A stretch of DNA of 40,872 nt from Sphingomonadales bacterium (GTDB lineage: Bacteria; Pseudomonadota; Alphaproteobacteria; Sphingomonadales; Sphingomonadaceae), in the NCBI GenBank assembly GCA_025360285.1, contig JANYCM010000228.1, forward strand, positions 1-40,872, given 5' to 3'. Positions 36,997-40,150 of the stretch are shown here, piece by piece. Both the position numbers and the translations under genes were made by a program. The notes below the pieces were generated by a model, which made no database searches, had not been told where the DNA came from, and worked only from the letters and a program-made list of their open reading frames with translations. Each line of letters begins with the position of its first letter. The stretch's first letter is position 1.

Positions 36997-38343
36997 GTGT
37001 CACATATGAAGACCATCTTGCTTTGCGCCAGTGCCATCGCCCTGTCGATCACGCCCTTCGCCGCCAATGCCACGGCCAAGCACAAGGTAAAGCCTGCCGG
37101 CCCGTCGGCGGCTTCCATCCAGGCCCAGGAGATTCGTGAGCTGCGCGCCCAGCTTCTGGCCCTGACGGCGAGGCTCGACGCCCAAGCCGCCGCGACCCAG
37201 CAGGCGGCCGCGCAAGCCAGCGACGCTCAGGTCAAAGTCCAGTCGGTTGTCGAAGACGCACAGGCGACCCAGGCTCAGGTCAATGCCCAGGCCCAGGCGA
37301 TGCCCGATCAGGTCAAGATGGCGCTGGCCACCCAGCCCAAACCCAAGGCGCAATGGTTTGATGAGACCAAGATCAGCGGCCGCATGTATTATAATTTTAC
37401 GACGATCAGCCGCTTTTCGAATGGCGTCAAAAACGAAGGTGATGGCGACCTGGCGATCAAGCGCCTCTACATCGGCATCGATCACAAATTCGATGATATT
37501 TTCTCGGTGAACTTCACTACCGATATAGACAATGTTGTCGGCCAGACGGGCAATCTGGTCGGCAAGGGCCTGTATGTGAAAAAGGCCTTTGTCGAAGCCC
37601 GGCTTGATCCGGCGCTGATCATCCGGCTTGGCGCCGCCGATATGCCCTGGGTGCCGTTTGCCGAAGCAAATTACGGTTATCGGCACGTTGAAAATGTCCT
37701 TATCGACCGCACCCGGTTTGGCACCTCCACCGACTGGGGCATCCATGCGCTGGGCAGTTTTGCTGATGGCATTATCAGCTATCAGGTCTCGGTCATCGAT
37801 GGCGCCGGCTATCGCGATGTCCATGTGTCCAAGACATTGGATGTCGAAGGCCGGGTATCGGCACAATATCATGGCTTCACCGTGGCGGTGGGCGGTTATA
37901 CCGGCAAGCTGGGCAAGGATATCCAGGGTGCCACTTTGCTGCATACTGCCGAGCGCCAGGATGCGCTGATCGGCTATCAAGGCAAGATTTTTTCGGTCGG
38001 TGCCGAATATTACCATGCCAAGAACTGGACGCAGGTGACGGCGGTGCCCAGCGATTCGGCCAATGGCTATTCGCTGTTCGGGACCGTCACGCCGATCAAG
38101 AAGATCAGCATTTTCGGCCGCTATGACTGGGTCAAGCCGAAGAATGATACGGCCAATGGTTTCAAGGACGAATATTACAACATTGGTATTCAGTACAGCC
38201 CGGCCAAGATTGTGGATTTTGCGCTGGTCTACAAACATGAAAAGGCGTTGGGCGGCGTGTTGCTGACCAGCAATGGCAGCATCGGCGGCAGCGTTGATGG
38301 CAGTTATGACGAATTCGGGCTGTTCGGCCAGGTGCGCTTCTGA
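36997..38343 (+). CDS. Phosphate-selective porin, OprO/OprP-like
   Basis: A 448-aa outer-membrane porin. Signal peptide (ILLCASAIALSITPFAANA), then an N-terminal coiled-coil-like stretch rich in Ala and Gln (about residues 40-105: RELRAQLLALTARLDAQAA), then a beta-barrel with alternating residues and a C-terminal Phe (GLFGQVRF). KISGRMYYNF and LAIKRLYIGIDHKFDDIFSVNF resemble the phosphate/pyrophosphate porins OprO and OprP. GTG 36997 has GAGGGG 8 nt upstream; ATG 36991 is too close to it and ATG 37006 too far. Position after pstS suggests outer-membrane passage of phosphate. Confidence 0.88.
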   Translation: MSHMKTILLCASAIALSITPFAANATAKHKVKPAGPSAASIQAQEIRELRAQLLALTARLDAQAAATQQAAAQASDAQVKVQSVVEDAQATQAQVNAQAQAMPDQVKMALATQPKPKAQWFDETKISGRMYYNFTTISRFSNGVKNEGDGDLAIKRLYIGIDHKFDDIFSVNFTTDIDNVVGQTGNLVGKGLYVKKAFVEARLDPALIIRLGAADMPWVPFAEANYGYRHVENVLIDRTRFGTSTDWGIHALGSFADGIISYQVSVIDGAGYRDVHVSKTLDVEGRVSAQYHGFTVAVGGYTGKLGKDIQGATLLHTAERQDALIGYQGKIFSVGAEYYHAKNWTQVTAVPSDSANGYSLFGTVTPIKKISIFGRYDWVKPKNDTANGFKDEYYNIGIQYSPAKIVDFALVYKHEKALGGVLLTSNGSIGGSVDGSYDEFGLFGQVRF

Positions 38344-38355
38344 TCGGATGACAGG

Positions 38356-38386
38356 AACGGGGGCGCCACTGGGTGCTCCCGTTTCT
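38356..38386 (+). terminator. Rho-independent terminator after the porin gene
   Basis: AACGGGGGCGCC (38356-38367) pairs with GGGTGCTCCCGTT (38371-38383) in a GC-rich stem with a bulge, and TTT follows within GTTTCT. It begins 12 nt after the porin stop. Confidence 0.65.
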
Positions 38387-38459
38387 CTGGACCATTTGGT
38401 CTGACACAGGCATGCCAGCGCGGTTTCTCGGGCTGGACAATCACAATCGCCGCGGGCAT

Positions 38460-38513
38460 ATGAGCGTCATGCAGCTTGTGGCCCTCCTGCTTCTGCGACT
38501 TACGCGCCCTTAG
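38460..38513 (+). CDS. leuL: Leucine-rich leader peptide of leuA
   Basis: A 17-codon frame missing from the ORF track reads MSVMQLVALLLLRLTRP and stops at TAG 38511. Six of its codons are Leu, four of them consecutive (CTC CTG CTT CTG). It lies 98 nt before leuA, directly ahead of mutually exclusive RNA stems. This is the hallmark of a leader peptide sensing leucyl-tRNA through ribosome stalling. The ribosome binding site is weak (GCGGGCAT), and ATG 38469 is an alternative start. The peptide itself needs no function. Confidence 0.8.
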   Translation: MSVMQLVALLLLRLTRP

Positions 38514-38594
38514 GCGCGACGTATTTGTTCGCCCTGATGGGCTTGAGCCACCGCGCCTGAGGGACCTTCCGCTACCATATCGGAACCCAATTTT
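38503..38594 (+). promoter_or_regulatory. Leucine attenuator upstream of leuA
   Basis: Three competing stems are visible. Pause stem 1:2 is CGCGCC (38503-38508) with GGCGCG (38513-38518). Antiterminator 2:3 is CCCTTAGGCGCG (38507-38518) with CGCGCCTGAGGG (38552-38563), 12 pairs including one G-U. Terminator 3:4 is GGG...TTCCG (38561-38571) with CGGAACCC (38581-38588), followed by AATTTT. The GGG at 38561-38563 is shared by the last two, so they exclude each other. A ribosome stalled on the Leu codons would cover segment 1 and allow 2:3; one reaching the stop would cover segment 2 and allow termination. The terminator stem is short with a 3-nt bulge. Confidence 0.72.
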
Positions 38595-38611
38595 CAGACA
38601 GGCACCATATC

Positions 38612-40150
38612 ATGACCGACCATATCCGAATTTTCGACACGACCCTGCGTGACGGTGAGCAATCGCCGGGCTGTTCGATGAACCTTGAAGAAAAATTGAA
38701 GGTCGCGGCGCAGCTGGAAACACTGGGCGTCGATATCATTGAAGCCGGCTTTGCCATCGCCAGCCAAGGCGATTTCGAAGCGGTTACTGCCGTCGCCAAG
38801 CAGTGCGATACGGCGATCGTCGCCAGCCTGGCGCGCGCCGCCATGCCCGATATCGATCGCGCCTGGGCCGCCGTCCGCCATGCCCGGCGCCCGCGCATCC
38901 ACACGTTCATTGCCACCTCGCCGCTGCATATGCGGGCGAAACTCAACAAGACGCCGGAGGAAGTGCTCGACGCCATTGCTGCGTCGGTCACCCATGCCCG
39001 CAACCTGTGCGAGGACGTCGAATGGTCGGCGGAGGATGCGACGCGCAGCGACCCCGATTTCCTGTGCCGCGCCGTTGAAACCGCGATCCGCGCCGGGGCG
39101 ACGACGATCAACCTGCCCGATACGGTCGGCTATGCGACGCCCGACACCTATGGCGCGATGTTCCGTGATGTCATCAACCGCGTCCCCGATGCCGACAAGG
39201 CGATATTTTCGACGCATTGCCACAATGATCTCGGTCTCGCCGTTGCCAATACGCTGGCGGCGATCATGGCGGGCGCGCGCCAGTGCGAAGCGACGATCAA
39301 CGGCATCGGTGAACGCGCCGGCAATGCCGCGGTGGAGGAAATCGCCATGGCGATCCGCGTGCGCCATGATGTGTTGCCGGTGCGCACCGGCATCGTGACG
39401 ACCGAAATCACCAAAGCATCGCGGTTGATCAGCGGGATCACCGGCATGGCGGTGCAGGCCAACAAGGCGATCGTCGGCGCCAACGCCTTTGCCCATGAAA
39501 GCGGCATCCACCAGGACGGTATGCTGAAGGATTCGAGCACCTATGAGATCATGACGCCCGAAAGCGTCGGCATGGGCGCAACGAACCTGGTGCTGGGCAA
39601 GCATTCGGGGCGCGCCGCCTTCCGCCAGAAGCTCGGCGAGATGGGTTATGATCTCAGCGACAATGAATTCGGCGATGCCTTCAAGCGCTTCAAGGATCTG
39701 GCCGACGCCAAGAAGCAGGTGTTCGATGAGGATATCGTCGCGCTGGTTGATGACGAAGTGCTGCGCGGGCATGATCGCATCCAGGTCGTCGAAGTCGAGG
39801 TCTATTGCGGATCGAATGGCCCGCAGCGTGCCATTCTGACGCTGAGCATCGATGGTGAGGAACATACCGCCGCAGTGCGCGGCAATGGCCCGGTTGATGC
39901 GCTGTTCAACGCGGTGCGCAAGCTGGTGCCGCACGATGGCGCGACCTTGCAGCTGTACCAGGTCCATGCGGTGACGGCGGGGACGGATGCACAGGCGGAA
40001 GTGTCGGTTACGCTGTCGGAAGACGGCCGGATGGCGCGCGGTGCCGGGGCGCATACCGACACGCTGGTGGCGAGTGCGCGGGCGTATGTGAATGCGCTCA
40101 ACAAGCTGGTGGTCAAGCGCGGCCGGAGCGCGCTGGCGGCGGCGGGGTAG
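38612..40150 (+). CDS. leuA: 2-isopropylmalate synthase
   Basis: First committed enzyme of leucine synthesis; condenses acetyl-CoA with 2-oxoisovalerate. At 512 aa it is the LeuA type 1 length. The catalytic barrel opens with IRIFDTTLRDGEQSPG, carries the metal motif STHCHNDLGLAVAN, then GERAGNAAVEEIAMA, and the HESGIHQDG segment. The C-terminal regulatory domain (about 390-512, including VEVYCGSNGPQRAILTLSIDGEE) would bind leucine for feedback inhibition. It is thus controlled at two levels, by the leader attenuator just upstream and allosterically. No other leu gene is present in the window. Confidence 0.96.
   Translation: MTDHIRIFDTTLRDGEQSPGCSMNLEEKLKVAAQLETLGVDIIEAGFAIASQGDFEAVTAVAKQCDTAIVASLARAAMPDIDRAWAAVRHARRPRIHTFIATSPLHMRAKLNKTPEEVLDAIAASVTHARNLCEDVEWSAEDATRSDPDFLCRAVETAIRAGATTINLPDTVGYATPDTYGAMFRDVINRVPDADKAIFSTHCHNDLGLAVANTLAAIMAGARQCEATINGIGERAGNAAVEEIAMAIRVRHDVLPVRTGIVTTEITKASRLISGITGMAVQANKAIVGANAFAHESGIHQDGMLKDSSTYEIMTPESVGMGATNLVLGKHSGRAAFRQKLGEMGYDLSDNEFGDAFKRFKDLADAKKQVFDEDIVALVDDEVLRGHDRIQVVEVEVYCGSNGPQRAILTLSIDGEEHTAAVRGNGPVDALFNAVRKLVPHDGATLQLYQVHAVTAGTDAQAEVSVTLSEDGRMARGAGAHTDTLVASARAYVNALNKLVVKRGRSALAAAG

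Follow-up and report, generated by a model that had tools for sequence, protein, structure and literature searches.

A conserved, putatively leucine-responsive leader RNA upstream of leuA in Sphingomonads and other Alphaproteobacteria

The 40,872-nucleotide stretch of DNA analysed here (the window) carries a leuA gene preceded by a short open reading frame with consecutive Leu codons, which raises the question of whether leuA is under ribosome-dependent leucine control and, if so, how such a signal would be read out. An initial annotation of the window had proposed a leucine leader peptide followed by a complete attenuator composed of a pause stem, a 12 bp antiterminator and a terminator. The genome is that of a Polymorphobacter-like Sphingomonad, and its nearest named relative is Polymorphobacter glacialis, whose LeuA is 95% identical to that of the window. 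From comparison with related genomes the element is real and conserved, almost surely leucine-responsive, and very probably a ribosome-dependent leader of leuA; the coordinates of its features are listed in the table.

Table. Features of the leuA leader region in the window, in order of position
Feature	Coordinates	Strand	Remarks
Predicted -35 element TGGACA	38434-38439	+	CTGGAC(A/T) ~17 nt before a -10-like hexamer, conserved in most Sphingomonad leaders; prediction only
Predicted -10 element CATATG	38457-38462	+	Aligns with CATAGT, CATAAA or TATGxx in relatives; leader ATG follows 6-9 nt later
ORF upstream of leuA, initial annotation	38460-38513	+	MSVMQLVALLLLRLTRP, then stop
Leader ORF, probable corrected start	38469-38513	+	MQLVALLLLRLTRP, then stop; 14 aa; start aligned on relatives, in-frame Leu codons conserved in 147 leaders
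Putative regulatory codons Leu-Leu-Leu-Leu-Arg(CGA)-Leu, CTC CTG CTT CTG CGA CTT	38484-38501	+	Leu in 57-100% of Sphingomonad leaders at these places; CGA before the last CTT in 81/81
1:2 stem ('pause' stem) CGCGCC-CTTA-GGCGCG	38503-38518	+	-10.3 kcal/mol; in 29 Sphingomonads 99.4% of cells are paired, and six of these have AU for GC at one pair
Region 2, 5' arm of 2:3 helix	38507-38518	+	Contains the stop codon together with the 3' part of the Pro codon
Region 3, 3' arm of 2:3 helix	38552-38563	+	97.5% of cells paired class-wide (biased upward, see text); 24 double-change cells vs 7.6 in shuffles
Weak hairpin GGG-acc-TTCCG/CGGAA-CCC (terminator stem of the initial annotation)	38561-38588	+	-6.1 kcal/mol; 3-nt bulge; in ~10/24 genus members
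AATTTT tail	38589-38594	+	Starts AA, holds 4 T; not conserved
CAGGC around the leuA Shine-Dalgarno	38599-38603	+	Available for pairing with GCCTG 38555-38559 once region 2 is covered; ACAGGC or a close variant across the genus
leuA, 2-isopropylmalate synthase	38612-40150	+	TIGR00973 leuA_bact, 697.8 bits (cut-off 598.7)

Alignment of the upstream DNA of relatives on the nearest in-frame ATG revealed a recurrent CTGGAC(A/T) located ~17 nt 5' of a -10-like hexamer, with mostly 6-9 nt between the hexamer and the ATG, and the predicted promoter at the window leader has the corresponding arrangement TGGACA-17-CATATG. The leader ORF of the initial annotation is present in the DNA, but its start was probably placed 9 nt too early. 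The ATG at 38460 forms the second half of the predicted -10 hexamer, and is doubtful as a start codon because it falls within this conserved box; the ATG at 38469 agrees with the leaders of the relatives in the upstream alignment and is probably the true start. The position of the first ATG within the -10 box also indicates that the leader mRNA is probably leaderless, with transcription beginning at about the ATG at 38469 as judged from the spacing of the predicted promoter. Farther upstream, a G+C-rich hairpin followed by GTTTCTCT (38357-38390) lies 3' of the preceding gene, the ORF of which ends at 38343, and looks like that gene's own terminator.

We assembled 147 distinct leaders, 81 from Sphingomonads and 66 from other Alphaproteobacteria. 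Their Leu codons occupy fixed places in a single frame, the other two frames holding few once the anchor itself is set aside, and the linkage to leuA is constant; the proposed leucine leader peptide, a predicted short ORF with conserved in-frame codons for the product amino acid, is thus strongly supported. At ~43 distinct Sphingomonad loci upstream of leuA nearly all leaders end in a Leu run followed by RLTRP and a stop, or RLTRPxA and a stop, and the RLTRP tail is present in 78 of the 81 Sphingomonad leaders. The Sphingomonad leaders use CTT for 201 of their 358 Leu codons, versus 7 of 92 in three window genes, and CGA, which is invariant in the Sphingomonad leader, accounts for 1 of 54 Arg codons in the same three genes. 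This preference for the rare codons CTT and CGA would fit a stalling site. In one subclade of the genus (among L169-L183) the leader stop has been lost (CCT CGG GCG TGA, reading RLTRPRA and then a stop), and the 1:2 loop and region 3 are altered alongside. Two leuA upstream regions depart further: L040, with a LeuA of 86% identity, has a decayed leader (MIDLRLTRR and a stop), and L051, with a LeuA of 78% identity, has none, both being apparent losses of the control.

The RNA can form two helices, 1:2 and 2:3, which are mutually exclusive in that bases 38507-38508 and 38513-38518 are common to both; both covary, and the position of a ribosome could select between them. The pause stem lies where the initial annotation had placed it and shows double changes in relatives; it is a Sphingomonad feature, with a third type, CTCGCC/GGCGAG, in L154. 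The 12 bp helix was likewise correctly located, pairing region 2 with region 3, and is found in all 147 leaders with 8-11 of 11 possible pairs, whereas the best place in shuffled sequence mostly gives 7-8. Its double changes in the class-wide alignment of 28 leaders were not reached by any of 500 shuffles; these 28 were chosen for good pairing, which inflates the proportion of paired cells and affects the double changes less. Both covariation and conservation of the Leu codons in related genomes, which had been suggested as checks on the attenuator, were therefore found. The fold of the 141-nt region is beaten by only 6 of 200 shuffles, and free leader RNA favours the 2:3 helix in predicted folding, so that the ground state depends on folding kinetics.

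The heptamer CGACTTA (38496-38502 and homologues) is invariant in Sphingomonad leaders, synonymous positions included, lacks a pairing partner there, and must be explained by codon choice or by an unseen contact. At leuA upstream regions in other Alphaproteobacteria (L062, L063, L068, L072, L075, L085, L089, L104 and L111) the partner of region 1 (CGACTTAGGTG, CCTTATCAG) is a segment past region 3 (CACCTAAGTC, CTGATAAGG), a pairing that encloses the 2:3 helix and, in L111, overlaps the leuA Shine-Dalgarno. This 1:4 helix (CGACTTAGGTG with CACCTAAGTC, and variants) is enriched in the other Alphaproteobacteria, with 17 of 67 at p<0.05 and nine at the lowest possible p. It was rejected as the cause of the invariant CGACTTA in Sphingomonads, of which 3 of 81 reach p<0.05, showing no enrichment.

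A covariance model of the Sphingomonad core gave one significant match in the window's own genome, and located the element in all 24 genomes of the genus and in 335 of 401 genomes of the family, nearly always once per genome. With a class-wide model the element was found in 90 of 289 sampled Alphaproteobacteria, and in the phylum sample all matches fell within the class except one marginal hit (E=0.002). leuA adjoins the element in each of the 38 class or phylum loci that were fetched. Twenty loci were also fetched, most of them from genomes in which the window LeuA has no close homologue, and in 17 (L143-L158 and L162) the element stands before a LeuA of ~560 aa; that of L147 scores 811.5 bits against TIGR00970 leuA_yeast (cut-off 697.4) and 176.7 bits against leuA_bact. 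The leader thus stayed, or was reused, when leuA gave way to a non-orthologous gene of the leuA_yeast type in many Sphingomonadaceae. Its presence before these non-orthologous LeuA genes as well ties the element to the synthesis of leucine and not to a single gene.

These positions suggest a scheme in which stalling, the direction of the response and the off-step are all inferred. When leucyl-tRNA is scarce, a ribosome would stall on the Leu codons and cover region 1, keeping the 1:2 stem open and allowing region 2 to pair with region 3. When leucine is plentiful the ribosome would reach the stop codon inside region 2, which would prevent 2:3 pairing, and with region 3 free leuA would presumably be turned down. 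Because there is no clear terminator, the link between the choice of helix and the expression of leuA is missing.

Three ways of closing this gap are about equally likely. Classical attenuation, in which with leucine the hairpin at 38561-38588 and its AATTTT would terminate transcription and 2:3 would serve as the antiterminator, is doubtful. The hairpin and T-run do lie where the initial annotation had them, GGG at 38561-38563 is common to the 2:3 helix and the hairpin as it had said, and one subclade of the genus keeps the hairpin with some compensating length change. As a terminator, however, the structure is weak and bulged with a poor tail, and a terminator scan of the window leader listed only the 1:2 stem and not this hairpin. 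It is confined to that one subclade and absent from the rest of the genus, and the T-tract is not conserved even in the nearest relatives; members of the genus have GATTC, GATTTAG, GAATTC, GCTCAACG or GAAACCG at the position of the tail. In a scored terminator search (threshold 12) the hairpin scores zero, and 17 of 147 leaders have terminator-like sites versus 9 of 147 shuffles, as compared with 36 of 100 flanks just after leuA at the same loci; the search therefore finds terminators where they are expected, and the leaders show no clear enrichment. A stable hairpin with a T-tract competing with the antiterminator was thus not found, and we rejected an intrinsic terminator as a feature of the family, given that leaders are barely above shuffles and the T-tract is not conserved. 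The claim of a complete attenuator with all of its components visible is not supported on this point and should be withdrawn, as the terminator is its weakest part and most relatives lack it although they retain all the others. In the window's own genome the hairpin may nonetheless work as a weak terminator, but the off-step in the family is probably not a canonical intrinsic terminator; Rho acting on a C-rich, G-poor stretch, or masking of the leuA Shine-Dalgarno, fits the conservation at least as well.

Masking, in which free region 3 would pair with the leuA Shine-Dalgarno and 2:3 pairing would release it, is unlikely but tenable. With a ribosome at the stop codon, the optimum predicted fold of the leader in the window has the GCCTG/CAGGC pairing, with similar folds in most of the genus, and predicted accessibility of the Shine-Dalgarno in the window is 0.59 with a stalled ribosome versus 0.28 with the ribosome at the stop; in 17 of 26 near relatives, too, stalling gives the higher value. 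Over 116 leaders, however, there is no systematic effect on accessibility (p=0.21), and masking as a general output was rejected on these grounds; the stretch running from region 3 up to the start codon is no more stable than shuffles, and the pairing bases are invariant in the genus, so that no covariation signal is possible there. In close relatives masking remains suggestive. Rho-dependent attenuation, in which without the 2:3 helix the C-rich, G-poor RNA past region 3 would let Rho load and end transcription, is a tentative candidate: between region 3 and the Shine-Dalgarno all 64 Sphingomonad leaders before leuA_bact have more C than G, as do 17 of 18 before the other type of LeuA, and C and G are equal in the corresponding stretches before 238 other predicted genes. 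Against this, composition is indirect evidence, the stretch has a median length of just ~30 nt in Sphingomonads, the C-runs might be there simply to pair with region 3, and the bias is weaker in other orders (41 with C>G, 13 with C<G). The peptide itself could also stall the ribosome by nascent-peptide arrest. TnaC stalls the ribosome at Pro-stop, and the near-constant RLTRP tail of the Sphingomonad leaders, read as RLTRP-stop, would be compatible with similar arrest. The ORF, however, extends 2-3 codons beyond the Pro in 20 of 81 Sphingomonad leaders with the helices retained, and outside the Sphingomonads the residues before the Pro vary (RCP, ICP, TSP, ISP, TGP) while the RNA core CTTANNNGCCCCT is kept; with its stop moved and its residues variable the peptide does not qualify as a TnaC-like arrest peptide, and such arrest is very unlikely and was rejected. 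The constraint at the end of the leader looks like one acting on the RNA. Short ORFs with Leu runs are individually not rare in G+C-rich DNA, and a chance ORF with functionless hairpins would account for these, but it is refuted by the conservation, covariation and synteny across many families and is hardly credible.

The leu operon attenuator of enterobacteria, with its leader peptide leuL and the Rfam family Leu_leader, shares with the element described here a Leu-rich peptide before leuA, consecutive Leu codons and ribosome-timed alternative helices. The alphaproteobacterial element differs in having about half the length, a 2:3 arm in the stop codon, no conserved T-tract terminator and a probably leaderless mRNA, and it was found only in Alphaproteobacteria in our sample. 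An Rfam search with the window and 12 related loci returned no relevant family, and the Leu_leader covariance model matched the window neither at the gathering threshold nor at E up to 10 and matched none of the related loci. By function the element groups with leader-peptide attenuators; by sequence it is distinct from the enterobacterial leu leader.

Within the class, an alphaproteobacterial ilvB(N) leader peptide has been reported (Vitreschak 2004, as cited in PMC1273637), as has one for Caulobacter ilvBN (PMC4117421). The ilvB(N) leader is also a branched-chain amino acid leader peptide of the same class but concerns another gene and other codons, and the leuA-leader models match before leuA only. 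Sinorhizobium meliloti trpL/rnTrpL is an alphaproteobacterial attenuator that also has a 14-aa leader peptide encoded by a leaderless ORF at the transcript start, an arrangement predicted for the leuA leader, but with Trp codons and trpE (PMC10117765). The uORFC-8-2 motif of Rhodobacterales, judged to be ribosome-mediated attenuation, is likewise an alphaproteobacterial leader ORF with regulatory codons, but these are Cys codons before cysS and in one order (PMC8632094). No report of an alphaproteobacterial leuA leader was found in the open literature searched, and some members may have been predicted in Vitreschak 2004, a comparative study of proteobacterial attenuation.

We consider the chances about even that this is a class-wide, unnamed alphaproteobacterial leucine leader in which the helix choice made by the stalled ribosome acts on leuA through Rho or through initiation of leuA translation, with no intrinsic terminator involved, and that this switch persisted when a non-orthologous leuA took the place of the original gene. 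With no Rfam family for it, genome annotation is likely to miss both the peptide and the RNA, and leucine control of leuA in Alphaproteobacteria would gain a single RNA element with a name that can be searched for. Should the off-step prove not to be an intrinsic terminator, the leader would provide a testable variant of textbook attenuation. The presence of one leader before two unrelated types of LeuA clearly exemplifies a regulator that survives the replacement of its gene or is reused by the new one.
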